DNA of 64,000 nt, from the NCBI GenBank assembly GCA_025617745.1, contig CM046863.1, forward strand, positions 12,838,875 to 12,902,874, written 5' to 3'. The notes below the pieces were generated by a model that had not been told where the DNA came from, did not search any database, and was given only the letters and a program-made list of their open reading frames with translations. Numbering within the stretch: the first letter of the stretch is position 1; the number at the start of each line of letters is the position of its first letter. This stretch comes from Heliocidaris erythrogramma. Taxonomy: Eukaryota; Echinodermata; Echinoidea; Camarodonta; Echinometridae. Below are positions 10,750 to 49,661 of the stretch, one piece after another. A program made the translations under genes and the position numbers.

Positions 10750-11228
10750 TCCGCTCGCTAGTCATAAGGACCGCTATTCATAAAAAAATCATAAGGACCA
10801 TTATTCATATTAAGACATAAGGGTCGTTATTCATAAGGGTAATTATTCATAAGGATCGCTATTCATAATACGGAAAGAGGGTCGCTATTCATAATACCAA
10901 ATCAGGGTCGTTAATCATAAGGGTCCCTATTCATAATACGAAAAGAGGGTCGCTATTCATAAAGGTCGATATCCCTAAGGGTCGCTATTCATAAAGGTCA
11001 ATATTCATATGGGTCGCTATTCATAATCGAAGTAGAGGGTCGCTATTCATGATCGGAGAAGAGGGTCGCTATTCATAATCGAAGAAGAGGGTCGCTATTC
11101 ATAATCGGAGAAGAGGGTCGCTATTCATAATCAGAGAAGAGGGTCGCTATTCATAATCGGAGAAGAGGGTCGCTATTCATAATCGGAGAAGAGGGTCGCT
11201 ATTCATAATCGAAGAAGAGGGTCGTCAT
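10750..11228 (+). repeat. 26-bp tandem array, plus orientation
   Basis: The unit is GGGTCGCTATTCATAATCGG followed by AGAAGA. Copies are degenerate at the left (AAGGACCGCTATTCAT, AAGGGTCGTTATTCAT) and become nearly identical towards 11040-11225. The gradient suggests growth from the right. The same unit occurs in reverse orientation at 15480-15925. Confidence 0.93.
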
Positions 11229-15310: not shown

Positions 15311-15479
15311 TTTGTTCATCGCCCCTCCCATTATAATTGCTTCGACACAGCAGTGGGGGTGTCTCCCATCCAATATTATTATTTTGTTTGCTAATTTAAT
15401 TCTTTCATATTTGAGTGTTTCATTGAACAATGAAAATAATATTCAAATATTTTACAAATAATCCTACCCCTAACCTCTT

Positions 15480-15925
15480 CTTCGATTATGAATAGCGACC
15501 CTCTTTTTCGATTATGACAAGCGACCCTCTTCTCCGATTATGAATAGCGACCCTCTTCTCTGATTATGAATAGCGAGCCTCTTCTCTGATTATGAATAGC
15601 GACCCTCCTACCCGATTATGAATAGCGACCCTCTTCTTTGATTATGAATAGCGACCCTCTTCTCCGATTATGAATAGCGACCCTCTTCTCTGATTATGAA
15701 TAGCGACCCTCTTCTCCGATTATGAATAGCGACCCTCTTCTCCGATTATGAATAGCGACCCTCTTCTCCGATTATGAATAGCGACCCTCTTCTCCGATTA
15801 TGAATAGCGACCCTCTTCTCCGATTATGAATAGCGACCCTCTTTTGCGATTATGAATAGCGACCCTCTTCTCCGATTATGAATAGCGACCCTCTTCTCCG
15901 ATTATGAATAGCGACCCTCTTCTCC
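15480..15925 (-). repeat. 26-bp tandem array, minus orientation
   Basis: The unit CGATTATGAATAGCGACCCT followed by CTTCTC is the reverse complement of the array at 10750-11228. About 17 copies are present, most differing by one or two bases. The two arrays therefore form a large inverted pair about 4.2 kb apart. Confidence 0.94.
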
Positions 15926-19210: not shown

Positions 19211-22200
19211 AAACCTCCGGCATTGGAGGTTGGAGCCCATTAGCTTAATATCAGTTCATGGGAAGCTGTTTTCAAGAAATATGGCAAAGATAGCTCTTAA
19301 TGGTTACTTGTTGTGACCTGAATGCTATGCCAAGCTACACTGACCTGATGTCGGTAATATCACACCCGTATCATTGTACAGTGATTGAGCTAAAAGAGAC
19401 AACAACAATCTGGCAACAAAAAACGCTGGAGGATGCCGTAACTTTCCTGACACATTCAAGATCAGTCTTTAGATCTGTTGCTGAGAAAAATGCCCTGAAC
19501 TTGCAATATGCCGTGAGGCGACAAGGAACTGAACCTCACTATTGGCTCAAGCTCAATAAATTATTTGACACTAGTTAAGAGGACCTTGGAAGGACCACAA
19601 CCTGTATAACGCATCTTCAGCCAAATCACCCTCTGTTAACTCTCAGTCAACCACAGCAACCCAGTGTACATGTATATGGAAAGAGAGCAAACGGATGGGG
19701 GAATTTTAGAAAGCCTGGCCAGGTCAATATCCAAAATGTCCACATCAACATTCTATTGCATGTCCAAAAAAGGAAGGCGACGCTGTGAAGACTCGATGTT
19801 GTTGTCGCTGTCGTCTTTGTTACCGTTTTTAAAGAACACTTATCAGTCCCAATTTGAACTAGGAAGTTTTCTGAAAATTTTTGATCAGCCCCAAAGAAAA
19901 GAGGAACTTTAGCTAAGATGTAGAGGACTGATCTAGGAGAAGTGGAATAATAATGTTGCTCTCACAGATGAAGATCGTTCTGGCAATCCTAGGTTTGAAA
20001 ACATCATTTATATTAATGTCTGACAGTAAAGAACTATTGTCCTGTTGTTTGGAAGAGATATCAAGATATTCAAAAGATGTACAACGGCTAATTTGGCTCA
20101 AGACCGTTCTGGCAAACCTCCGGCATTGGAGGTTGGAGCAAATTGTCGTAACGTCAGTTCATGGAAAGCTGTTTTCAAGAAATATGGCAAAGATAGCTCT
20201 TAATGGTTACTTGTTGTGACCTGAGTGCTGTGCCAATCTACACTGACATGATGTCGGTAATATCACACCCGTATCATTGTACAGTGATTGAGCTAAAAGA
20301 GACAACAACAATCTGGCAACAAAAAACGCTGGAGGATGCCGTAACTTTCCTGACACATTCAAGATCAGTCTTTAGATCTGTTGCTGAGAAAAATGCCCTG
20401 AACTTGCAATATGCCGTGAAGCGACAAGGAACTGAACCTCACTATTGGCTCAAGCTCAATAAATTATTTGACACTAGTTAAGAGGACCTTGGAAGGACCA
20501 CAACCTGTATAACGCATCTTCAGCCAAATCACCCTCTGTTAACTCTCAGTCAACCACAGCAACCCAGTGTACATGTATATGGAAAGACATCAAACGGATG
20601 GGGGAATTTTAGAAAGGCTGGCCAGGTCAATATCCAAAATGTCCACATCAACATTCTATTGCATGTCCAAAAAAGGAAGGCGACGCTGTGAAGACTCGAT
20701 GTTGTTGTCGCTGTCGTCTTTGTTACCGTTTTTAAAGAACACTTATCAGTCCCAATTTGAACTAGGAAGTTTTCTGAAAATTTTTGATCAGCCCCAAAGA
20801 AAAGAGGAACTTTAGCTAAGATGTAGAGGACTGATCTAGGAGAAGTGGAATAATAATGTTGCTCTCACAGATGAAGATCGTTCTGGCAATCCTAGGTTTG
20901 AAAACATCATTTATATTAATGTCTGACAGTAAAGAACTATTGTCCTGTTGTTTGGAAGAGATATCAAGATATTCAAAAGATGTACAACGGCTAATTTGGC
21001 TCAAGACCGTTCTGGCAAACCTCCGGCATTGGAGGTTGGAGCAAATTGTCGTAACGTCAGTTCATGGAAAGCTGTTTTCAAGAAATATGGCAAAGATAGC
21101 TCTTAATGGTTACTTGTTGTGACCTGAGTGCTGTGCCAATCTACACTGACATGATGTCGGTAATATCACACCCGTATCATTGTACAGTGATTGAGCTAAA
21201 AGAGACAACAACAATCTGGCAACAAAAAACGCTGGAGGATGCCGTAACTTTCCTGACACATTCAAGATCAGTCTTTAGATTTGTTGCTGAGAAAAATGCC
21301 CTGATCTTGCACTATGCCGTGAAGCGACAAGGAACTGAACCTCACTATTGGCTCAAGTACAATATATTATTTGACACTAGTTAAGAGGACCTTGGAAGGA
21401 CCACAACTTGTATAACGCATCTACAGCCAAATCACCCTGTGCTAACTCTCAGTCAACCACAGCAAGCCAGTGTACATGTATATGGAAAGAGAGCAAACGG
21501 ATGGGGGAATTTTAGAAAGCCTGGCCAGGTCAATGTCCAAAATGTCCACATCAACATTATATTGCATGTCCAATAGAGGAAGGCGACGCTGTAAAGGCTC
21601 CATGTCGTTGTCGCTTTCGTCGTTGTTGTCGGTTTGAAAGGAACACTTATCAGTCCCAATTTGAACTAGGACTTTTTCTAAAAATATTTGATCAGCCCCG
21701 AAGAAACGAGAACACTCTAGCTGTGTTGTTGAGGACTCATCTAGGAGAAGTGGCATATTAATGTTGCTCTCACAGATGAAGATCGTTCTGGCAATCCTAG
21801 GTTTGAAAACATCATTTATATTAATGTTTGACAGTAAAGAACTATTGTCCTGTTGTTTGGAAGAGATATCAAGATATTCAAAAGATGTACAACGGCTAAT
21901 TTGGCTCAAGACCGTTCTGGCAAACCTCCGGCATTGGAGGTTGGAGCAAATTGTCGTAACGTCAGTTCATGGAAAGCTGTTTTCAAGAAATATGGCAAAG
22001 ATAGCTCTTAATGGTTACTTGTTGTGACCTGAATGCTATGCCAAGCTACACTGACCTGATGTCGGTAATATCACACCCGTATCATTGTACAGTGATTGAG
22101 CTAAAAGAGACAACAACAATCTGGCAACAAAAAACGCTGGAGGATGCCGTAACTTTCCTGACACATTCAAGATCAGTCTTTAGATCTGTTGCTGAGAAAA

Positions 22201-24798
22201 ATGCCCTGAACTTGCAATATGCCGTGAAGCGACAAGGAACTGAACCTCACTATTGGCTCAAGCTCAATAAATTATTTGACACTAGTTAAGAGGACCTTGG
22301 AAGGACCACAACCTGTATAACGCATCTTCAGCCAAATCACCCTGTGCTAACTCTCAGTCAACCACAGCAAGCCAGTGTACATGTATATGGAAAGAGAGCA
22401 AACGGATGGGGGAATTTTAGAAAGCCTGGCCAGGTCAATATCCAAAATGTCCACATCAACATTCTATTGCATGTCCAATAAAGGAAGGCGACGCTGTAAA
22501 GACTCGATGTTGTTGTCGCTTTCGTCGTTGTTACCGTTTTTAAAGAACACTTATCAGTCCCAATTTGAACTAGGATTTTTTCTTAAAACATTTGATCAGC
22601 CCCGAAGAAACGAGAACACTCTAGCTGTGTTGTTGAGGACTGATCTAGGAGAAGTGGGATGATAATGTTGCTCTCACAGATGAAGATCATTCTGGCAATC
22701 CTAGGCTTAAAAACATCATTTATATTAATGTTTGACAGTAAATTTTTTTTGTCCTTTTGTTTGGAAGAGATATCAAGATATTCAAAAGATGTACAACGGC
22801 TAATTTGGCTCAAGACCGTTCTGGCAAACCTCCGGCATTGGAGGTTGGAGCCCATTGTCGTAACGTCAGTTCATGGAAAGCTGTTTTCAAGAAATATGGC
22901 AAAGATAGCTCTTAATGGTTACTTGTTGTGACCCGAAGGCTATGCCAAGCTACACTGACATGATGTCGGTAATATCACACCCGTATCATTGTACAGTGAT
23001 TGAGTTAAAAGAGACAACAACAATCTGGCAACAAAAAACGCTGGAGGATGCCGTAACTTTCCTGACACATTCAAGATCAGTCTTTAGATCTGTTGCTGAG
23101 AAAAATGCCCTGATTTTGCACTTATGCCGTGGAGCGATAAAAAACTGTACCTCACTATTGGCTCAAGTACAATATATTATTTGACACTAGTTAAGAGGAC
23201 CTTGGAAGGACCACAACCTGTATAACGCATCTTCAGCCAAATCACCCTGTGTTAACTCTCAGTCAACCACAGCAACCCAGTGTACATGGAAAGAGAGCAA
23301 ACGGATGGGGGAATTTTAGAAAGCCTGGCCAGGTCAATGTCCAAAATGTCCACATCAACATTATATTGCATGTCCAATAGAGGAAGGCGACGCTGTAAAG
23401 GCTCCATGTCGTTGTCGCTTTCGTCGTTGTTGTCGGTTTGAAAGGAACACTTATCAGTCCCAATTTGAACTTGGAAGTGTTCTGAAAATATTTGATCAGC
23501 CCCGAAGAAACGAGAACACTCTAGCTGTGTTGTTGAGGACTCATCTAGGAGAAGCGGGATAATAATGTTGCTCTCACAGATGAAGATCGTTCTGGCAATC
23601 CTAGGTTTGAAAACATCATTTATATTAATGTTTGACAGTAAAGAACTATTGTCCTGTTGTTTGGAAGAGATATCAAGATATTCAAAAGATGTACAACGGC
23701 TAATTTGGCTCAAGACCGTTCTGGCAAACCTCCGGCATTGGAGGTTGGAGCAAATTGTCGTAACGTCAGTTCATGGAAAGCTGTTTTCAAGAAATATGGC
23801 AAAGATAGCGCTTAATGGTTACTTGTTGTGACCTGAGTGCTGTGCCAATCTACACTGACATGATGTCGGTAATATCACACCCGTATCATTGTACAGTGAT
23901 TGAGCTAAAAGAGACAACAACAATCTGGCAACAAAAAACGCTGGAGGATGCCGTAACTTTCCTGACACATTCAAGATCAGTCTTTAGATCTGTTGCTGAG
24001 AAAAATGCCCTGAACTTGCAATATGCCGTGAAGCGACAAAGAACTGAACCTCACTATTGGCTCAAGTTCAATAAATTATTTGACACTAGTTAAGAGGACC
24101 TTGGAAGGACCACAACCTGTATAACGCATCTTCAGCCAAATCACCCTCTGTTAACTCTCAGTCAACCACAGCAACCCAGTGTACATGGAAAGAGAGCAAA
24201 CGGATGGGGGAATTTTAGAAAGCCTGGCCAGGTCAATGTCCAAAATGTCCACATCAACATTCTATTGCATGTCCAAAAAAGGAAGGCGACGCTGTGAAGA
24301 CTCGATGTTGTTGTCGCTATTATCGTTGTAATCGTTCTTAAAGAACACTTATCAGTCCCAATTTGAACTAAGAAGTTTTCTGAAAATTTTTGATCAGCCC
24401 CAAAGAAAAGAGGAACTTTAGCTAAGATGTAGAGGACTGATCTAGGAGAAGTGGAATAATAATGTTGCTCTCACAGATGAAGATCGTTCTGGCAATCCTA
24501 GGTTTGAAAACATCATTTATATTAATGTTTGACAGTAAAGAACTATTGTCCTGTTGTTTGGAAGAGATATCAAGATATTCAAAAGATGTACAACGGCTAA
24601 TTTGGCTCAAGACCGTTCTGGCAAACCTCCGGCATTGGAGGTTGGAGCAAATTGTCGTAACGTCAGTTCATGGAAAGCTGTTTTCAAGAAATATGGCAAA
24701 GATAGCTCTTAATGGTTACTTGTTGTGACCTGAGTGCTGTGCCAATCTACACTGACATGATGTCGGTAATATCACGCCCGTATCATTGTACAGTGATT
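19211..24798. repeat. Tandem array of a ~903-bp unit, 6.2 copies
   Basis: Copies begin at 19211, 20114, 21017, 21922, 22826, 23726 and 24623 (truncated), giving periods of 903, 903, 905, 904, 900 and 897 bp. Each begins with AACCTCC, GGCATT, GGAGGTT, a perfect 7-bp hairpin. Each holds the same short plus-strand frames (92, 82 and 88 codons). Copies 3 and 5 share variants that the others lack (CAAGTACAATATATTATT, GGCTCCATGTCGTTGTC). In the spans 21442-21909 and 23252-23713 they keep an acidic minus-strand frame of 153-155 codons that a stop cuts to 62 codons in the other units. I recognise no protein in any frame. It is best called a satellite-like repeat, possibly grown from a gene or mobile-element fragment. 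Confidence 0.95.
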
Positions 24799-37398: not shown

Positions 37399-37458
<60 letters not shown>

Positions 37459-37485
37459 GAAAAGGTGGATATACCCTACTTATCA

Positions 37486-37531
37486 GCTACTGCCAGTTTC
37501 ATGCCGAAGCAATCATCAGCTGATGAGTTTC
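37486..37531 (-). ncRNA. Inverted hammerhead copy in the left pLTR
   Basis: The minus strand has the same core (CTGATGA, TTCG-capped stem II, GAAACTGGCAGTA) within the inverted terminal repeat. One C next to the core is absent compared with the copy at 48.3 kb, which shifts stem I pairing and probably weakens cleavage. Confidence 0.75.
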
Positions 37532-37659
37532 GTTCGTTGAAGAAAATATCATGAATAATCCGAAAGACGCAAAATAAACAGTTACTAAAGAAAATCTACG
37601 TTACGTTTATAATCGATTGCAGAGTTTAAGAAATAGTAGCTAACTTCAGTTGACAAGGA

Positions 37660-38651
37660 AAAATTTCAGCTAAGTATCACAGCCCAAGCCAACCTCAAGG
37701 TCGTCCACTTCCTGGATGCTACCCTATCACTCATAGATGGATCTTTCAGACCGTACAGGAAGCCTAATGATTCCCCCATGTACATCAACTACAGTTCCAA
37801 CCACCCACCATCGATCATCAAACAGCTGCCTTCTGCCATCAACAGACGAATCAATGACCTGTCCAATTCCAAACCAACATTTGAAACTGCTATCCAGATT
37901 ATGAAGACGCACTCAGAGTCAGCGGCCACACACCCACCTTCTCTTACACCGAAACACCCCAAGAGCCCAAACGAGGACGCCAAAGGAACATAATTTGGTT
38001 CAACCCCCATTCAGCAAAAACACCACCACTAACATCGGCCGAACTTTCCTCCAGTTGCTCAACAAGCACTTCCACAAGCGATCACCACTTCACAAGATAT
38101 TTAACAGAAACACTATCAAGCTAAGTTACTCCTGTATGCCGAACATGCGCTCCATCATCTCTCAGCACAACAAGAAGATCCTGACACCCCCATCTGAAAC
38201 ACCCAATAAAGAATGCAACTGCCGCCGTAAACCTGAATGCCCCCTCAACGGTAAATGCCTGAGTACATCAATCATTTACAAAGCAACCGTTTCTACAACT
38301 GATAAGCAGATGGAATACATTGGCCTCACCGAAGGCACGTTCAAATCCAGATACGCAAACCACAAGCACTCACTAGCTCACAGGTCCAATGCCAACGCAA
38401 CCCAACTGTCTAAGTACGTATGGCAACTCAAGGACACCAAGACGAACTTTGACATCGATTGGAGCGTTGTCCAACACGCCCGGCCCTACAGCAACTCAAC
38501 TAAAAAGTGTCACCTATGCCTTGCTGAGAAACTGTGCATTGCGTGTGCGGACCCAGAAACATCACTCAACAAGAGAACAGAGCTTGTGTCTACATGTAGA
38601 CACAGAAATAAGTTCAAGTTAAAGCTCTTTCTCAACCGCCCGAAAAGATAA
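37660..38651 (+). pseudogene. Penelope-like polyprotein C-terminus: RT tail plus GIY-YIG endonuclease region
   Basis: The upstream part carries HFLDATLSL, RPYRKPNDSPMY and SNHPPSIIKQLP, the segment that follows the RT palm in these elements. The frame at 37995-38651 carries FNRNTIKLSYSCMPNM, then a Cys cluster CNCRRKPECPLNGKC, then a GIY-YIG-like block (IIYKATV, YIGLTEGTFKSR, NHKHS) and ends with a Cys-rich LNKRTELVSTCRH. The Cys cluster before a GIY-YIG domain is known from endonuclease-bearing Penelope-like elements. It is a fossil, truncated at its 5' end and broken. The catalytic RT motifs are not in the window. Confidence 0.8.
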
Positions 38652-39229
38652 ATATAAGTCTAGTGTTTTTCCACACACGCATTGCACTGTTTCCCTCACT
38701 TAATAACTTAATAATTTTTCGTAGTTAATCGATTCATCGTTCCTTTGCTTTTGTCAACTGAAGTTTGCTACTATTTCTTTTTTTTTTTTTAATCAGTTTT
38801 TATTCTTTTCTCTCTTGAAACAAATTACAATCATGGTACAAATTACAATCATCGTATATAACACATACTACAAATATGATATTCTGAAACAATATAAATT
38901 TTCATCTAACAAAAAGCTTCAAAAGAAATTAATATTACTTGAATATTGAAGAAAAAAATCCATAAACAAAAACCGGATAAATTGATATCCTTAATCATAT
39001 ACTCTTAATTCTCCTAATGACAAGCGTTTCCACCTTTTTTCCTTACATGTTCAATTTCCATACATCATACAAATAAGATTTAATATTTCCAGAGAAAAAA
39101 AAACAAAACAAACTTAATTCTTAATGAGATAAACATATCCAGTTGTATAATGCAACAATTTTGTTTTGCAATGTCGTAATTTATACTCCCTTTGTACTGT
39201 TGACCTGAGAGAAAGTTTTCTTTAAAAAA

Positions 39230-39310
39230 AAAAAAAAAAACAACAACAACAAACAAACAACCCTACCCTACCCTACCCTACCCACCTCCCCCTCCCCCCC
39301 CCCCCCCTTA
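39230..39310 (-). other. G-rich, quadruplex-capable tract after ORF2 stop
   Basis: On the minus strand the stop is followed by a run of about 14 G, then GAGGGGGAGGTGGGTAGGG and further TAGGG repeats, then (GTTT)n and a T run. Four or more G3 tracts spaced by TA form a canonical quadruplex motif. The LINE copy at 5.5-6.85 kb also has a long G run at the same place. Confidence 0.75.
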
Positions 39311-40168
39311 ACCGGTGGACGACTGGCTCTGGGTTCCAATTGTTTGTCTAATATTCAGGTTTTCCCATTTAGAAAAATGGATAGTAAGAGTCCCCCTCAT
39401 TGCTGCCAATTTCCTTTCTTCTACTTTATCCCCTACAATACTATTCTTTATTTCATTAAATGAAGGTGGTTTTTTAAGTTCTCTATTTCTATAAATCAGA
39501 TATTTAACAAGAATTAGAATGTGATTCATTAATTGATGTTTTCCTTTATTTCTCTCCTCCTTCCCAAACAGAATTTCCTCCCAACTATAGTTATGTATTT
39601 CAAAATCTAAAAATCTTGTGCACATTTCCCACACTGATTGTACAAATTCACAAGTATAGAATAAATGTTTATATGTTTCTTCTTCTGTTTCGCAAAATGA
39701 GCATAAGTTAGTCGAGACAAGACCAAAACGGAAGAGGTGGTGGTTTGTATATAATATATTATGTATAAGTTTGAACTGAAATTCTCTTAATCGACTATTA
39801 AGTGTACACTCTCTTAGTCTTAAAAATATGTTTTCTATTTCCTTGCAGGAAAAACCATAGTTCCTTCCAATTCTCTCAAAAACCAAAGGTTTAAATCCAT
39901 CTTTCTTTATTAGTTGTACATAGATTTGTTTTGATTTTACATCAGTTATATTAGTTGTTTTCTTTCCCAAAGTGAAATCAGTTCCAGAATTATTTTTTTC
40001 TTCCATTCTAATATTATTTTTCCAACAAAAGGGTAAACAGGCATAAAGGTGCTTGATCTTTACAATGTCATTCACTTCTACACCTAAATCGACAAAGTGT
40101 CTATCACATTTTAGTTTACCATCGTTTCCCAGAATATGTTTTAATTTGTAAATTCCTTTGTCGTACAA
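39308..40168 (-). CDS. LINE ORF2, C-terminal region with zinc-finger-like motif
   Basis: A 286-codon frame continues the ORF2 after the Penelope-like insert: YDKGIYKLKHILGNDGKLKC, then LRLRECTLNSRLREFQFKLI, HNILYTNHHLFRFG, and LCSFCETEEETYKHLFYTC, the CxxC...HxxxxC pattern of the zf-RVT region after LINE reverse transcriptases. It ends KWENLNIRQTIGTQSQSSTG, matching the other copy at 6.6-6.85 kb. The initial Met is an accident of the interruption. Confidence 0.88.
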   Translation of the reverse strand: MYDKGIYKLKHILGNDGKLKCDRHFVDLGVEVNDIVKIKHLYACLPFCWKNNIRMEEKNNSGTDFTLGKKTTNITDVKSKQIYVQLIKKDGFKPLVFERIGRNYGFSCKEIENIFLRLRECTLNSRLREFQFKLIHNILYTNHHLFRFGLVSTNLCSFCETEEETYKHLFYTCEFVQSVWEMCTRFLDFEIHNYSWEEILFGKEERNKGKHQLMNHILILVKYLIYRNRELKKPPSFNEIKNSIVGDKVEERKLAAMRGTLTIHFSKWENLNIRQTIGTQSQSSTG

Positions 40169-40269
40169 CCTCTTATCGTATATACAACTTCCTTTATATC
40201 GAATAAGCTTATTATTTCAGAAAAAAGGTTTGCGGTACAACCATGTGAGTTGGAATAACTCCACGTTCC

Positions 40270-40536
40270 ATCGGAGAGACTGGGAGGGACATCAAATCTC
40301 GCATCAAGGAACACCGTGCCCATGGGAGACTTGGTCACTACGACCGATCTGCCATTATCAATCATTCTGTCACTCGTGATCACCAGATTAACTGGGAAGA
40401 CACCAAACTTGTAGCCCCCGCTTCCAACTGGTATACCAGGAGGGTCCGTGAAGCCATCGAGATTCACAAACATGACACAGTTACACAGGACAAGGGTTTA
40501 CAGATCAGCGACATTTGGTTTTCACTCTTCCAATAA
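40270..40536 (+). CDS. GIY-YIG endonuclease C-terminus of Penelope-like element 2
   Basis: The open segment reads IGETGRDIKSRIKEHRAHGR, then SAIINHSVTRDHQINWEDTK, ASNWYTRRVREAIEIHKHDT and ISDIWFSLFQ, ending at a stop. This is the second half of the GIY-YIG nuclease (IGET, KSRIKEH with its Arg, NH, and REAIEI with its Glu) as found at the C-terminus of endonuclease-bearing Penelope-like elements. The RT and the first half are missing by truncation. Confidence 0.85.
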   Translation: MGETGRDIKSRIKEHRAHGRLGHYDRSAIINHSVTRDHQINWEDTKLVAPASNWYTRRVREAIEIHKHDTVTQDKGLQISDIWFSLFQ

Positions 40537-41263
40537 TAACTAGTGTTATAATTTTTATGTATTTTAACCACAATTGCTTCCCTCAACAGGATTTCATTTT
40601 TCTCTCCTCAACTTGTTCATTACCTTTGTTTTGTTGTTTCATTCATAACATTCATTATATTCATCATTAGGATACTCATTCTGATGTCATTATTTCACCC
40701 TTTTTTCCCACATGTATGTTTTTAAATTTAATATCTTTCCTCAACAGGATGACTTGTTTCTCTCCACAGATTATCTCCAACAGGATTTCATGTTTCTCTC
40801 CTCAATTTGTTCATTATCATTGTTTTTTTTTTTTCTCTCCACAGCCTTTCACAACATTTATTATTAGTATACTTAGTATACTTATTAGTATTCTGTTGTC
40901 AATATTTCACCTTTTCCATATGTATGTTTTAACCTTAATTCCTTTCCTCAACAGGATGCCATGTTTCTCTCCACAGATTACCTACGGTCCCAATCCCCCC
41001 TTTTGTTTCCAGCTTATCCAGACGGTTAATTGATTTCTTAGTCCTATTGTTCACTTGTTTTCATTGTTTCTTTTCAACGCAGGATTCGTTTGATGTCACT
41101 TATCCTTTCAATGCAGGTACCTTGATGTTATTTATCCTTTCAATGTAGGTACTTTGATATTACTGTTACTATTTCTTTCTATGTTATTTGTTTGCATCCA
41201 TTTTTATTAAGTGAATTGCTGCTTCATATATAAATTCTGCTGATTTATTCGCTCTTCTCATTC

Positions 41264-41320
41264 TCCTGACGACGGCCAGAGCATTCTGACCGGAACGTGG
41301 AGTTATTCCAACTCACATGG
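41264..41320 (+). ncRNA. Degenerate hammerhead-like motif of Penelope-like element 2
   Basis: CTGACGA (41266-41272) is followed by a stem II CGGCCAGA/TCTGACCG and GGAAC where GAAA is expected, then GTGGAGTTATTCC. The order is that of a hammerhead, but the second core block is altered and stem I is not evident. Probably inactive. Confidence 0.45.
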
Positions 41321-41368
41321 TTGTACCGCAAACCTTTTTTCTGAATTACAACTTCACCATGCAAACCT

Positions 41369-42847
41369 TCAAATCCTAAGCTTATTATTGAAAATTACCA
41401 CATCACCAATGTCTATACTCCTTATATGTCTTGTATTCACCCAATCTTCTAATAAATCCATATAAAATTGTGGAGCTGTCACTTTTAATAAACCTGGTAT
41501 ATAGTCACATGAAAATATTAAATCTCCACCCAGGTGTTTAGTGACAAAGTTAAAATATTGTTTCCATTTCATGTCTTCATCTTTATTTAGAAGTTTTTGA
41601 ATCCACATAATTCGCTGCGATTTCACTTGTGCAGAAAAGTTTAACATCTTCAATCCCCCTTGCTTATAGTCTAAAAACATTGTATTTCTATTGATTTTAT
41701 CTGTCTTTCCTTTCCATATGAAATCAAAAGTTAGTTCATCCAGTGAATCAAAAACCCGTTTTGGAACAGGAGTAAGTGACGCCCGATAAAGAACTTTAGA
41801 ATAAATATGCACCTTCAATAGTTGAATCTTTCCCATGAGTGTTAAATCCCTTTGCTTCCAAAAATTTAAAAGTGTTTTTATTTTACTTAAGATTTCTTTG
41901 TAATTTAAATCTCTTTCCTGTGTTCATCAAGGGAAAAGAAAACCCCTAAAAAAACCTTAAGAAAGTCAACTATTTCGCCAAAAGAAAAATCATAATCTAA
42001 ACGTTGGCATAAACCTAACCTTAATATTTTAGTTTTGTCGTTGTTTATTTTCAGTCCAGAAAGTTTTTCGAAGTCTGCAAATAGTACTTTTAACCTATCA
42101 ATTGATTTTTCATTGCGAGCAAAAATTGTCATATCATCGGCATAAAGTACTAGTTTAGTTTCCTTATCTCCAAAATTAATTCCATCCACCAATTTATCTG
42201 TTCGTAATTTGTGTGCCATTACTTCAATACATAAGATAAAAAGGTACGGAGAAAGAGGATCTCCCTGCCTTACTCCCCTTTCTACTTTGAAATAACCAGT
42301 GGACCTTCCTTCATTTAATACACAACTTAAAGTGTTCGTGTATAAAACTTTAACCCACTTTTGAAAAGATGGACCAAAACCAAATGATGACAGAACTTTT
42401 TGAAGAAATTGATGTGAAACCGAGTCAAAAGCTTTTTCGAAGTCTATAGCCAACAAAAAACCGGATAAATTATAACGGGATGTATGAAAAATAATATCAT
42501 CAATAATGCGAATGGCCTCACCAATATTCCTCCCCTTCATATAACCCACCTGATCTCCCATAAATGATTTCATTTAATACTTTCTTGATTCGCTTAGCCA
42601 AGATTTTTGTTAAGATTTTATAATCGACATTAAGAAGGGAAATGGGTCTATAATTTTTCAATAAAAAGGGATCTTTCCCATCTTTAGCGATTAACGTAAT
42701 TACTGCTTGTTTTTGTGAAGATGCTAATTCTCCTGATCTATAAGCTTCATTCAAGGCATCTTTAACTAAATCTCCAATATCCGGCCAAAAGGTACAATAA
42801 AATTCTGAAGAAAGACCATCATTTCCAGGTGATTTATTCTGTTTCAA
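41369..42847 (-). pseudogene. LINE ORF2, reverse transcriptase and thumb, frame-broken
   Basis: Three overlapping or adjacent frames carry the RT in order. 42847-42518 has NKSPGNDGLSSEFY and KNYRPISLLNVDYKI. 42573-41905 has DQVGYMKGRNIGEA, LLAIDFEKAFDSVSHQFL (catalytic Asp), GVRQGDPLSPYLFILCIEVM and LVLYADDMTIFA (catalytic YADD). 41836-41369 has the thumb region ending DIGDVVIFNNKLRI. Breaks lie near 42850-42890, 42518-42573 and 41836-41905, and the last part is cut by the Penelope-like insertion. All RT catalytic residues are visible, but the element cannot make the full protein. Confidence 0.9.
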
Positions 42848-42889
42848 TTCTTTTAAGATTTCTAGGCATTCTTTATTAGTTATAATCCT

Positions 42890-44281
42890 TCACAGTATTC
42901 TCGAGATTTTTCTGTCAATTTCGGTAAACCTTGAAAAAAAACTATCGTAACAGTTATCCGAGCACTCGTACTCTACTTTACCGTACAACCTACTGTAAAA
43001 CTTCCGGATTTCTTCTGTTATCCTTTTTTCATCGCAACAGATAGCACCATCTGAGGTTTTAATTTTCTTAATAGTACTTTTTCTTTTGTTATTTTGCATC
43101 AACTGATTAAAATAACGCGAATCCCTTTCTCCACTTTCGTACCACGAGGCTCGTGATCGAATCCTAATTCCTTCATTTACATAACCATAAACTTCCTTTA
43201 ATTTCTCTTTGGTGTTTTCCAATTTTTCTAAAATATTTACATTAGTGCTTTCTGTCAATTGTTGTTCTAAAAACTGTATTTCTTTTTCTAAATCTGTTCT
43301 TATTGTTCTTCTTTGATCAGCCAATTTTTTCGAAAATTTTTGTGTAAAGCTCCGAATTTTCATTTTCAAAAAATCCCATAACAACCTCTTGTCTTTTATT
43401 TCAATTTGTAGTTCATTTTTTAATTGACAAATTTTCTTCTTTAACTCTCTAACATAATCTTCATTTTCACACAGACTATTGTTGAATTTCCAATATGACC
43501 CCTTTCTTCCATTCGATTTATTAATTGTTTTATCAAATAAGCGTAAAAATATTGAATGATGATCAGGGGCAACAGATGGAATTATATCACACTTCATAAC
43601 CATTTCCTCTAGACATTCCGATATTATCCAGTAATCTAGTCTACTTTGCATAAAGGGATTCTTGTGCATATAAGTGAATTGCTTTTTTAAAGGATGCCTA
43701 CATCTCCAAATGTCCGAAAGCTGCAAATCTTCCATGAATTTTCCAAATTCTCGATTAAATCTTTTCGAAATCCTGTTTAAAGACTTCCCGTTATAATCAA
43801 ATTCAATGTCCCTAATCATATTGAAATCGCCACCTATTATAACCGGGTATTTATCTTTATTTAACTTAGCCAAATTATTGCGTAGTTTTCGAAGAAATTG
43901 CAATTGATCATTCTCAAAATTCCTTGTTGGAAAATACACATTGCCTAAAATCAACCTAACACCTTGAAACTTAAAAACAAAAACTATAAAAATATATCTA
44001 CCCTCACTGTCTTTTAAGACTTGCAATATCTCAATATCTACCCTCGGCGCAATTAAAACGAGAACTCCTTTGCTGTGATTAGAACCATGACTAAAATAAC
44101 TGGAACCCTCCCACACTGAAGCCCACTTGTCCTCGCAATCCCTAGTACTAAAGGTTTCTTGTAGGAAAACGATGTCCGCCCCTTTATCTTTACACCACAA
44201 AAAGATACGTTCCCTTTTATCCCTGTCCCTGATCCCTTTCACGTTAAGGGAGAACAATTTACAATTAATCAGAACATCCAT
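42890..44281 (-). CDS. LINE ORF2, apurinic-type endonuclease and start of RT region
   Basis: A 463-codon frame begins MDVLINCKLFSLNVKGIRDR (motif N), then FLQETFS (catalytic Glu), VIIGGDFNMI (the GDFN box), SRLDYWIIS and SVAPDHHSIFLRL (the terminal Asp-His). These are the APE-type endonuclease motifs of L1/Tx1-like LINEs, which nick target DNA for primed reverse transcription. The following 200 residues are charged and coiled-coil-like with SRASWYESGERDSRYFNQLM, the linker common before LINE RT domains. The endonuclease looks intact. The frame stops before the RT. Confidence 0.92.
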   Translation of the reverse strand: MDVLINCKLFSLNVKGIRDRDKRERIFLWCKDKGADIVFLQETFSTRDCEDKWASVWEGSSYFSHGSNHSKGVLVLIAPRVDIEILQVLKDSEGRYIFIVFVFKFQGVRLILGNVYFPTRNFENDQLQFLRKLRNNLAKLNKDKYPVIIGGDFNMIRDIEFDYNGKSLNRISKRFNREFGKFMEDLQLSDIWRCRHPLKKQFTYMHKNPFMQSRLDYWIISECLEEMVMKCDIIPSVAPDHHSIFLRLFDKTINKSNGRKGSYWKFNNSLCENEDYVRELKKKICQLKNELQIEIKDKRLLWDFLKMKIRSFTQKFSKKLADQRRTIRTDLEKEIQFLEQQLTESTNVNILEKLENTKEKLKEVYGYVNEGIRIRSRASWYESGERDSRYFNQLMQNNKRKSTIKKIKTSDGAICCDEKRITEEIRKFYSRLYGKVEYECSDNCYDSFFSRFTEIDRKISRIL

Positions 44282-44299
44282 AACCTATCACATAGAAAA

Positions 44300-46100
44300 A
44301 ATTTAACCCAGTCCCAGAGCCAATCCCCCACCTTAAAGGACCCACACCTCCACCCCAGCATCCCCAACACCCAACAAAACTCATAATTACCCAAAACATC
44401 ACGTATGACCTGTATCTCTCCCACCCTTTCCCGCTATTCCTCTTATAGAACAAATGACTTACTGCAGGTCGATTACACCCCTATAAAACCATGGTCTATC
44501 TTCCCACCTTTCTTTGTCAATCTTATCATCAACAAATCTACTTCAAGAAACTGCTTCTCTTTTATCTTTGTAATATGAAATACTCTCAAATTTTTCTGTT
44601 CTTTTTTTTCCTGTTCCAAACTAAGGATCTTTCATCATAATATTTTTTTTCAACTAAGAAAGAAAGAAAGAAGAAAAAAAAAAAAAAAAAAATATTGCCA
44701 AACTTAAAAACCAAAATGTCTTCCACCAGTAAATATTCCTTAAATTGCAGCATCTAAATATCTGTCTAAATTCAAAACTGTTCTATCCTGCCTTCATTGT
44801 ACATACGGTCTGCAATTCAAAATATGCACTATCATACCCTTCTATCTGCCTTCCCCAGTACACAATAAACAAATGACCTACTACATATCGACTACATCAA
44901 TAATCTTTGCATGAATAAGGGATAAAACAACCAGAAATAAAATGCCCTATTTCCTACCCGCCATCTTCATCCCTACAGTATATCTTCTCACCAACCAGAA
45001 CCATGGTACATGTTTCATATATTCCACTTTTTTTGTCAATATTTTATCAGAAACACCTGGATTAAAAAAAAAAAAACTCTGAAAACTACTAGTACTCTAC
45101 TCTAGACCAACTTGCATCAAGAAATTGCTTCTCGTTCATATTTGCAATGAGGTACATGTATAAAGAACATACTCTCTGCCTTTCTTTTCCTATACTTTTC
45201 CTTGTTTTCTTTCAACATAAAAATCGTTACACAACTTTAACAAGGAAACAAAAGAAAAATGTTCCTCGTCAATAAAGATTTCTTAAAGAGTAGTTTCTAA
45301 ATATTTTCTTTTGTTTTTCTTCAAATCAGGGGCAAGAACAGAAATCAAAGACAAGGAGAGACATCATACTATCCCCATCTCAATTCAAGCTGTTTAATCC
45401 TGTTCACATGTGCAGCCTACAATTCAAACTATGCACTGTCTCACCCCCCCCCCCCCATTCTACATTCCACATTTCACAAAACAAATGCCTTCATACATAT
45501 CAACTACATCAAATGTCTTTCTCATGTAACAATAATCAAAGAAAGGTCACCACGCCCAGCATCTTCACCCCTTCATTATATCTTCTTACCTACAATAACC
45601 ATAGTACCGACCATCCCCATTTCAATTCAAGGCCCATATACATTCTTTTTCTGTTCTACCCATTTTGTGTGGAATACATTCCACAGTTAACAAAAAAACA
45701 AAAAGAAAAAAACCACATAAAAAAACTTCCTACATCAACTAGTTCAATGGTCTTTTTCATATACTCTCCTAATCTTCTGGTTGCAATTCTGCCTACATAT
45801 AAATACAGCCTATAATTCAATACATTCCAGTTAATAAAACAGATGACTCCCTGCATAACAACTACCACAGTTCAATGGTCTTTTGTACTCTCCCTACTCT
45901 TCCCGTTGCAATTCAAAACTGACCCTTCTTGCCTCCATATACAGCTTGTAATTCAAATACATTCCACAGTTAACAAAACAAATACCTTCCTGCATACATG
46001 TATATATACAATGCATCAAATAGATCAATGATCTTTTTCCTTTACATGTTGTAAGAATAAATCAGAAGGGATAAAACATGCATGACCCCCCCCCCCCCCC

Positions 46101-46136
<36 letters not shown>

Positions 46137-47390
46137 ACATTCCACACTGCCTGCATTCCAAATTGCCTCCTTATACATTCCCTAGTTCCCAAAACAAATG
46201 ACTTTATGCCTATCAATTACATCAATGGAATTTTTTCTTGTAATACTGCATCAAAAGAAGTGATGAAGCATGCATGTCATGAAGCTTGTCTCACATCTCA
46301 GAAACTACAATTTCCTCCATCTTTCCTAAAAAATAATAAAAAATAAAAAAAGTTTCCTTGAATACAACTTTAAATGTATGTGTATTTTTTTCTTTCCATT
46401 CTCTTTCCCTCTCTACTCCTTTTGCAAAGTTCCACTTTTCCATGTTAACCCACAGTATAAATATAATTTAAACAAACTGCAGTATTCTTGTTTTACCTTC
46501 TAATTACATTGGTGGAAGATTTAAAGTTGCCATATTCCCATCATTTCCATTTAAAAATCCTCATTCTGGTGTGTACTGTAATAATCTATATTTTCCTTCT
46601 AATGCCACTTCTACATGTAATGCATATCAATGACATCAATGGTCTTTTCCCTGTAATCAAAAGGGATAAAGCATGCATAAACATGACACTTGCCTCACAT
46701 CTCAGGCACTACGATTTCCTCCATCTTTCCTTAAAAAAAAAAAAAAAAAACCCATAATAATAAAAACAATATCCTTTGATAAAAACATTTTCCTTGAAGA
46801 CATCTTTAGACATATATTTTCTTCCCTCTTTCCCCTCTGTCTCTCCTTTTTCCACTTTTCCATTTAACCTATACATATAATTGAAACAAACTGTAGAAAT
46901 ATTTGTTTTCCCTTGGAAGATTTTGAGTTGCCATATTTCCATAATATCCGTTTGAAGAACCTCCCTTCAGGTGTGTACTAGTAATCTATGTTTTTCCTTC
47001 TAATGCCACAGGAAGATTTAAAGTTGCCACATCTCTTTCGTTTCCATTTAAAGATCCTCCTTCCGGTGTGTACAAAGGTATCCTCCATCTCAAAAAAAAA
47101 TTAAAAAAATTATGGTTCCTTTTTATTCTGCTCCATATACTTAATTCCGTGCATCATCCTCATCTTTTAAATTGAGCTGGATATAACTTTAAAACTTTGA
47201 AACTTGACAAAAGCAAGATTCCTTCACATGCAGAAAAAAAAAGATTTCTTGGAAACAGCTACTCAATACATTTAACATCATTGAATTTACCTCATCTTTT
47301 GATCAAGATTTCCTTCACATGTAGAGAATGAAGATTCCTTGAAAACAGCTACTAAAATAACCAACATAGTAGCTCCTGGCATTATACTCC
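44300..47390 (-). other. Long inter-ORF region of the LINE with degenerate repeats
   Basis: About 3.1 kb separate the ORF1 duplication from ORF2, with no open frame of note. On the plus strand ACAAATGACTTACTGCA, ATCAACTACATCAA and TGGTCTTTT-like motifs recur near 44450, 44872, 45480, 45840, 45980, 46195 and 46615. Pairs such as CTCACATCTCAG with TTTCCTCCATCTTTCC recur at 46290 and 46700. There are poly-A/T and poly-C tracts. Confidence 0.6.
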
Positions 47391-47393
47391 TGG

Positions 47394-47925
47394 CACGGCT
47401 ACAACTCCTGTATTTTCAGACCCTGGTGTTGCTGTATCTCATGGCGATACAGCGAATCCTAGCTTTGCTGCAAATCTGGCACTGCTAATGCTATGGCTCC
47501 TGGAGGACAACTTGCTTCTGTTCTAATGTGGCTCCATGCATTACTTGGCCCCTGACGCACCTGCAGCTTCTGACGTTGCTACAGCTCCTGTTGCTGCTAC
47601 AATGCTGCGCCATCGTCTTTCATGAACTACCAATTTCCAAGGTTCAGGTTCAATTTCCAAGGCACGGCTACAACTCCTGTATTTACAGACCCTAGTGTTG
47701 CTGCATTTCATGGCGATACTGCGAATCCTAGCATTGCTGCAAATCTGGCACTGCTAATGCTATGTCTCCTGGAGGACAACTTGCTCCTGGTCTAATGTGG
47801 CTCCATGCATTACTTGGCCCCTGACGCACCTGCGGCTTCTGACGTTGCTACAGCTCCTGTTGCTGCTACAATGCTGCGCCCTCGTCTTTCATGAACTATC
47901 AATTTCCAAGGTTCAGCCCTTGAAA
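47394..47925. repeat. 269-bp tandem duplication at the end of ORF1
   Basis: CACGGCTACAACTCCTGTAT begins both copies (47394 and 47663), and both run through TGGCTCCATGCATTACTTGG to TTCCAAGGTTCAG with few differences. It covers the C-terminal ORF1 coding and the sequence just downstream on the minus strand. Confidence 0.9.
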
Positions 47926-48181
47926 AGAAGGCTATCTTTCCCTCCTCCCGTGCTTCCTTAAGCTTATTCATTTGCCTTTTCCTTTCGTCTCTGATCCTCT
48001 TGGGGAGATCATCACTTAGGAAAAATGATGTTCCCTTCAGGTTTTTGACTGCTCCGTGCACCTGAACCTTGTCTCGATACCTCAAAAATCTTATTTTGAT
48101 CGGTCTTGGTTTGATCACCGAGTTAACGCGATGTATTCTTTGATGTTCAGTTTTGTTGATAACATCTTCCTCTAACTTCAA
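47810..48181 (-). CDS. LINE ORF1 protein, C-terminal domain
   Basis: A 123-codon frame reads RPIKIRFLRYRDKVQVHGAV, KNLKGTSFFLSDDLPKRIRD and EAREEGKIAFFSRAEPWKLI. This is the RRM-follower/C-terminal domain pattern of L1-type ORF1p (LKGT, DLP, AREEGK), an RNA-binding nucleic-acid chaperone needed for L1 retrotransposition. The usual coiled coil and RRM would lie upstream but are lost at the 5' truncation (48199). The tail is Ala/Gly/Ser-rich (SIVAATGAVATSEAAGASGA). The first Met is probably internal to the ancestral protein. Confidence 0.8.
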   Translation of the reverse strand: MKLEEDVINKTEHQRIHRVNSVIKPRPIKIRFLRYRDKVQVHGAVKNLKGTSFFLSDDLPKRIRDERKRQMNKLKEAREEGKIAFFSRAEPWKLIVHERRGRSIVAATGAVATSEAAGASGAK

Positions 48182-48300
48182 ATTGTTTTTATAGAAATCT
48201 TAAACTCTGCGATCGATTATAAACGTAAACGTAGATTTTCTTTAGTAACTGTTTATTATGCGTCTTTCGGATTATTCATGATATTTTCTTCAACGAATGA

Positions 48301-48353
48301 AACTCATCAGCCTGATGATTGCTTCGGCATGAAACTGGCAGTAGCTGATAAAT
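48301..48353 (+). ncRNA. Hammerhead ribozyme motif with complete conserved core
   Basis: In order I see stem I 5' strand TCATCAGC (48304-48311), core CTGATGA (48312-48318), and stem II TTGC/GCAT closed by a TTCG tetraloop (48319-48330; the first pair is a T-T mismatch). Then come GAAA (48331-48334), a two-pair stem III with loop TGGCA, cleavage triplet GTA (48341-48343), and stem I 3' strand GCTGATAA (48344-48351). Seven of eight stem I pairs form. All invariant core bases are present. A very short stem III is the known form in Penelope-like elements and retrozymes, where such ribozymes process multimeric transcripts. It lies in the 3' pLTR-like end of element 1. Confidence 0.88.
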
Positions 48354-48421
48354 AAGGGTATATCCACCTTTTCCTGATATCTCAGCTCCGTAGAGCACTC
48401 TACGAGGTTTTAAGGACTTCT

Positions 48422-48424
<3 letters not shown>

Positions 48425-48461
<37 letters not shown>
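48425..48461. repeat. (TA)n microsatellite
   Basis: This is a pure TA run just beyond the right end of Penelope-like element 1. A matching run lies outside its left end (37403-37455). Confidence 0.95.
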
Positions 48462-49376: not shown

Positions 49377-49661
49377 TGGAAATAACTGCAGGGGTTGCAA
49401 AAACTGTCGAATTATAACATCCGCCATGGATCGAGCTATGTATGCGGCTTGTCATTATTCAATACTCCCCTGTCCCTCAAAGAAAAATGAGTCAAATAAA
49501 TGCTAAGGGTTTGCAAGGGCTGCCTGTCGGTATTTGTACTATCCGAATACCACTCAACCAGCATCCGCGGTCTAGTGGTTAAGGCGTTTGGCGTACAGTG
49601 CCAAAGACCCGGGTTCGACTCCCGGCGAAGACAGTTTTTGCAACCCTTGCAATTATTTCCA
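49377..49661. mobile_element. MITE with TTGCAAAAACTG ends enclosing a tRNA-like sequence
   Basis: GGAAATAACTGCAGGGGTTG and CAAAAACTGTC at the left are mirrored at the right by GACAGTTTTTG and CAACCCTTGCAATTATTTCC. Next to the right end, GCGGTCTAGTGGTTAAGGC (A box) and CCCGGGTTCGACTCCCGG (B box) give a tRNA-like Pol III promoter. The acceptor stem does not close, so it is not a tRNA gene. Confidence 0.65.

Follow-up and report, generated by a model that had tools for sequence, protein, structure and literature searches.

A Split, Two-Armed Insertion with a Hammerhead Motif in Its Right Arm

The window, a 64,000-nt stretch of the Heliocidaris erythrogramma genome, contains a hammerhead motif at 48304–48351 on the plus strand, whose core, pairing, and predicted cut site were read from the sequence. 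The motif lies within a 183-nt pLTR (48198–48380, plus strand) that continues into a tail (48381–48427, plus strand) and then (AT)n to 48459. A second copy of the pLTR, 96% identical and on the minus strand (37452–37631), forms together with 25 nt of 3′ UTR the left arm (37452–37656, minus strand), which adjoins (AT)n and lacks the tail. The left arm has its own hammerhead copy (37477–37527, minus strand), with the core intact at 37488–37519 and one C missing at the junction of stem I and core, a loss that probably impairs it. The body of the right arm (37654–38779, plus strand) comprises a coding remnant, with its stop codon at 38649–38651, and the 3′ UTR, and is truncated on its 5′ side. The whole looks like a 5′-truncated, two-armed insertion of Penelope-like appearance, and its layout is that of a Penelope-like element (PLE), with pLTRs in direct or inverted orientation, an optional tail on one of them, and an AT-rich target.

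The coding remnant contains an open frame of 248 amino acids (37905–38651, plus strand), which we take by its familiar motif to be the C-terminal GIY-YIG-type endonuclease region of a PLE. Judging the DNA by eye, we also take 37654–38651 to include the end of the RT region; the single ORF joining RT and GIY-YIG is represented by this C-terminal remnant alone, recognized by that motif. The 248-aa frame had no Pfam match over the cut-off (the best one, under it, was a DUF), no PHROG match, and no meaningful PDB match. An AlphaFold model of the endonuclease ORF computed without an alignment had a mean pLDDT of 33.7 and was left unused, and structure gives no support to the assignment. The body 37654–38779 is shared in part by most of 30 fetched loci, where it stands beside their own pLTRs, with identities of 91.0–99.6% for the longest piece per locus sharing at least 460 nt and down to 81% for shorter pieces.

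The PLE is split between 3′ UTR and pLTR by about 9.4 kb of foreign sequence (38780–48197, minus strand). As the 3′ UTR ends at 38780 in poly-T and the PLE resumes at 48198, we take the intervening stretch as a single nested insertion. LINE domains (Exo_endo_phos, RVT_1, and zf-RVT) occupy 39311–44281 on the minus strand, and from the two PLE edges we infer that 44285–48197 belongs to the same insertion. An open frame at 47810–48199 had no Pfam match, and no clear target duplication of the nested insertion was found by eye; a 269-bp unit is present within it in two tandem copies with 95% matches (47392–47916). Since the coding remnant lies upstream of the 9.4-kb insertion, the coding part is truncated and split but still present. 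The sequence-only reading had the ribozyme outliving the coding part, a view contradicted by this remnant of the same insertion (37654–38651) and by a conservation of the ribozyme no better than that of the remaining pLTR (see below).

Elsewhere in the window, a 26-bp unit is repeated about 8 times at 11011–11224, and what is nearly its reverse complement recurs about 17 times at 15474–15925, 4.2 kb farther on; this inverted pair of arrays perhaps marks the ends of a foldback-type element. Two near-identical open frames of 174 and 172 amino acids, about 1.8 kb apart (21442–21966 and 23252–23770, minus strand), are a local duplication, and the first of them had no Pfam match. A tRNA-like sequence at 49561–49633 (plus strand), barely over the Rfam threshold (30.8 vs. 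29 bits) and called by ARAGORN as Cys with anticodon aca, an odd call, is perhaps a tRNA-derived SINE.

Core, Stems, and Predicted Folding

Stem and position assignments follow hammerhead numbering. Read directly, the plus strand across 48312–48343 gives in order CTGATGA (48312–48318), 12 nt of stem and loop II, GAAA (48331–48334), CTGGCA, and the GTA triplet (48341–48343), with cleavage predicted after 48343. CUGANGA, GAAA, and NUH in this order, together with an open-ended stem I, give 48304–48351 the layout of a type I hammerhead. Stem I (48304–48311 with 48344–48351, plus strand) consists of six contiguous pairs, a C/A mismatch, and one further pair, that is, the seven of eight pairs counted in the sequence-only reading, and the invariant positions listed there (CTGATGA, GAAA, and the GTA triplet) are all in place. 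Stem II has the TTCG cap described earlier and three pairs, along with a T/T mismatch at its base that the description had left out. Stem III, whose 7-mer spans 48335–48341 (plus strand), has 2 bp beyond the A–U core pair. This very short stem III and the location in a pLTR are those of the minimal PLE type, a classification that depends on the assignment of the element as a PLE. The claimed hammerhead in a Penelope-like pLTR accordingly keeps its intact minimal type I core, with the element described as one that looks Penelope-like. Two pairs in stem III, also claimed as usual for retrozymes, apply to the motif here and not to retrozymes in general, as the accessible part of a review describes non-amphibian animal retrozymes with a stable helix III (PMC7761336).

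The minimum free energy of the 56-nt hammerhead stretch was ordinary (z = −0.03), and folding as such gives no support. The active monomer fold had −5.1 kcal/mol, compared with a minimum of −11.1 kcal/mol, stem III pairs formed at no more than 0.5%, and the active fold is predicted to be a minor state. It had been proposed that RNA from any upstream promoter could still be cut here. This predicted minor state speaks against it, as does the opposite-strand pLTR copy 10.7 kb upstream, which could pair with the motif in a long read-through RNA. So does the hammerhead of PAc, the Poseidon PLE of Anolis: in the accessible text of its study, no cleavage was seen unless protein was present (PMC11167929).

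A spaced core pattern had 135 matches in the 1.06-Gb genome, against 8 for the same pattern read backwards; by this control, about 0.0005 matches are expected in 64 kb, and the window has two. A looser hammerhead pattern gave 5 matches in the window against 2.5 expected, so the loose form by itself proves nothing. The Rfam hammerhead models had no match at the gathering score, and two stretches of 501 and 68 bases gave none with the threshold relaxed to E = 10; RF00163 had zero matches in the whole genome and likewise zero in 14 control genomes. A covariance-model search had been set beforehand as one of two tests that could refute the hammerhead, and its outcome counts against one. We judged the search unsuited to minimal PLE hammerheads, a judgment made without a positive control for such forms, and took the type I assignment to follow from core and pairing, with a model match as an aid to detection and not a defining feature.

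Copies, Families, and Orientation

The hammerhead region matches at least 41 places in the genome, a lower bound as 40 of 46 candidates were scored. In the loci read, the hammerhead lies in the 183-nt pLTR, which mostly adjoins (AT)n and fragments of the same body. Among the first 100 of the 135 core matches, to which family labels were assigned by eye, 26 belonged to the window's family (family A), 59 to a second one (family B), and 1 to a single further form; the other 14 were taken as chance or unrelated. Same-family neighbors within 12 kb, again among these 100 matches, were in minus–plus order 23 times, plus–minus never, plus–plus 3 times, and minus–minus once. Neighboring ribozyme repeats of both families are thus mostly outward-facing and head-to-head, with no tail-to-tail and 4 same-direction cases. 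Some pLTR matches are shortened (L019 near 2202; C7:40.16, C8:14.84, and C19:0.35 Mb) and lack the first ∼106–108 nt, the matching repeat starting at stem I of the hammerhead. Two family B hammerheads (C16:29004973 and 29005107) lie 134 bp apart in direct orientation, where pairs are usually inverted, and are a natural candidate for dimeric cleavage within one RNA.

That direct pair on C16 would also suit a retrozyme, a non-autonomous circular-RNA retroelement, in place of a PLE, and animal type I hammerheads are often found in retrozymes according to the accessible part of PMC7229834. In many of the loci read, however, a long body containing an open frame adjoins the repeat; neighboring copies are mostly inverted and not direct, and no tandem array of pLTR units was present in these loci. 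The short, tandem, direct, non-coding hammerhead units of a retrozyme were not found there, and we rejected this explanation for the loci read, giving it a negligible probability.

Conservation, Covariation, and Dimers

In 33 copies of family A, the hammerhead columns departed from the commonest base in 18 of 1,579 cells and the remaining pLTR in 60 of 4,178 (Fisher P = 0.44), while the hammerhead core differed in 6 of 396 cells (P = 0.83). The ribozyme shows no excess conservation among these copies, and constraint after insertion is not visible. As its columns are no better conserved than the remaining pLTR, the youth of the copies probably explains the intact core. The intact core in the window's right-arm copy could be read as a sign that a host role at this locus (48304–48351) preserved the ribozyme; the lack of extra conservation argues against that, as does the stretch just upstream, a nested insertion whose LINE domains lie on the opposite strand. 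With no constraint seen on the ribozyme, we rejected a host role as extremely improbable.

Between families A and B, one pair of stem II and two of stem III show double changes with pairing retained, and family B has an A–T pair where family A has the stem II T/T mismatch; in the single further form, stem II pairs uncleanly next to GAAA. These differences bear on whether the motif is a hammerhead look-alike, a passenger of the repeat that was never catalytic. Such a look-alike would fit the missing Rfam match, the weak monomer fold, and the lack of excess conservation of the ribozyme columns in the 33 copies, but dead copies would be expected to lack constraint after insertion even with a working source ribozyme. 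The second family, moreover, keeps the core at the same spacing along with double changes in stems II and III, and PLE pLTRs are the reported place of such hammerheads in the literature as far as accessible. We consider a look-alike unlikely.

The stem III 7-mers CTGGCAG (family A), CCAGTGG (family B), and CAGGCTG (the single form) are each self-complementary around a central G. A monomer hairpin whose loop is 1 nt cannot form a third stem III pair, a hint of dimers that is weak, coming from two families and one single form. Dimeric cleavage has been published for the minimal hammerhead class, as cited in the accessible parts of PMC6466107 and PMC7761336. The active dimer fold was predicted at −24.4 kcal/mol; two monomer minima together had −22.2 and the best dimer −30.4. 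The general gain from dimerization did not exceed that of shuffled sequences, 240 of 500 being as good.

All 33 distinct copies cross the predicted cut site, and none of the 41 matches starts at it; in the copies read, there is no sign that cleavage sets the cDNA end. Copies that span the site suggest copying from RNA that was either uncut at this point or religated. For PAc, the accessible text reports that unprocessed RNA was the main substrate and that no RNA reads started or ended at the hammerhead site (PMC11167929).

Arms, Tails, and a Common Source

In family A, one arm usually ends in CTGAT followed by (AT)n, and the other carries a tail, at most 57 nt long, ahead of (AT)n. We counted 18 arm pairs by hand, leaving aside arms for which no partner was listed. 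A full tail on one arm and none on the other was found in 14 pairs, a partial tail and a tail-less arm in 1 (C14:14.55 Mb), and tail sequence on both sides in 2 that are alike and perhaps duplicates (C14:11.33 and 11.43 Mb); 1 pair was not classifiable for tails (C19:36.32 Mb). The pattern would fit one reverse-transcription start site per side, and an optional tail on one of two inverted pLTRs is known for Penelope from the accessible text of PMC3846280.

Arms of the same insertion differed by 1.10% on average, vs. 1.67% for randomly paired arms (P = 0.0004; 20,000 shuffles; 9 loci). The comparison covered 10 of the 18 pairs, including the window's, and one near-duplicate was then dropped, leaving the 9 loci; the loci at C12:37.13 and 37.25 Mb are near-duplicates. 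The smaller difference within insertions suggests one common source for the two arms of an insertion.

Discussion

We interpret the motif as a minimal type I hammerhead of the PLE type, located in the pLTR of the tail-bearing arm of a 5′-truncated, two-armed insertion in an AT repeat that was later split by a LINE-bearing insertion, and put the probability of this reading at roughly 0.85. In principle, plus-strand RNA could fold into the hammerhead core and undergo cleavage after 48343. As stem III is too short for stability alone, efficient cleavage would be expected only from a dimer or with the assistance of protein: two copies may pair via the self-complementary stem III 7-mer, or the element's protein may help. 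This requirement is deduced from the sequence and from published relatives. In the life cycle of the element, the motif would lie just upstream of both cDNA start points, and the RNA that was copied would have been uncut at the ribozyme, or religated. The hammerhead at 48304–48351 is a young remnant with no sign of host function.

A further model would have the stem III 7-mer mainly link two template RNAs of the same source, the protein of the element then priming both strands of the target break and producing head-to-head twin cDNAs with one tail, with cleavage delayed until copying is over. We regard it as a speculative and quite improbable extension. A literature search on hammerhead, retrotransposon, and RNA dimerization found, judged by title, no work on a hammerhead as an RNA linker.

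The minimal hammerheads of PLEs (Cervera and de la Pena 2014; Lunse, Weinberg and Breaker 2017) share with the motif, as far as their accessible descriptions go, the type I layout, the full core, the very short stem III, and the location in PLE pLTRs, and dimeric cleavage has been reported for the class. Family A differs from them in the T/T mismatch at the base of stem II and in the mostly inverted copies within insertions, which are tandem in the review passage available. PAc similarly has a hammerhead near the pLTR–ORF junction, AT-rich targets, and a tail between two reverse-transcription start sites, and both target strands were cut and extended in vitro; its start sites were alike on both strands in vitro, whereas here one arm is usually tailed and the other tail-less (PMC11167929, accessible text). 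The Penelope of Adineta vaga has head-to-head inverted pLTRs, an optional tail on one, and a shorter inverted pLTR; self-priming on an antisense template was proposed for its inverted junctions, and the word "hammerhead" is absent from the accessible text (PMC3846280). Published work, accessible in part, already covers PLE hammerheads, cleavage as dimers, and inverted pLTRs with a single tail. Literature on hammerhead ribozymes and echinoderms contained, judged by title, nothing on such a case.

The role of minimal hammerheads in Penelope-like elements is still mysterious according to the accessible part of a 2020 review (PMC7761336). Dozens of young insertions in the H. erythrogramma genome allow comparison of the ribozyme, the two arms, and the two start points. 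With a copied RNA that appears uncut and the suggested common source of the arms, models of when the ribozyme cuts become testable.
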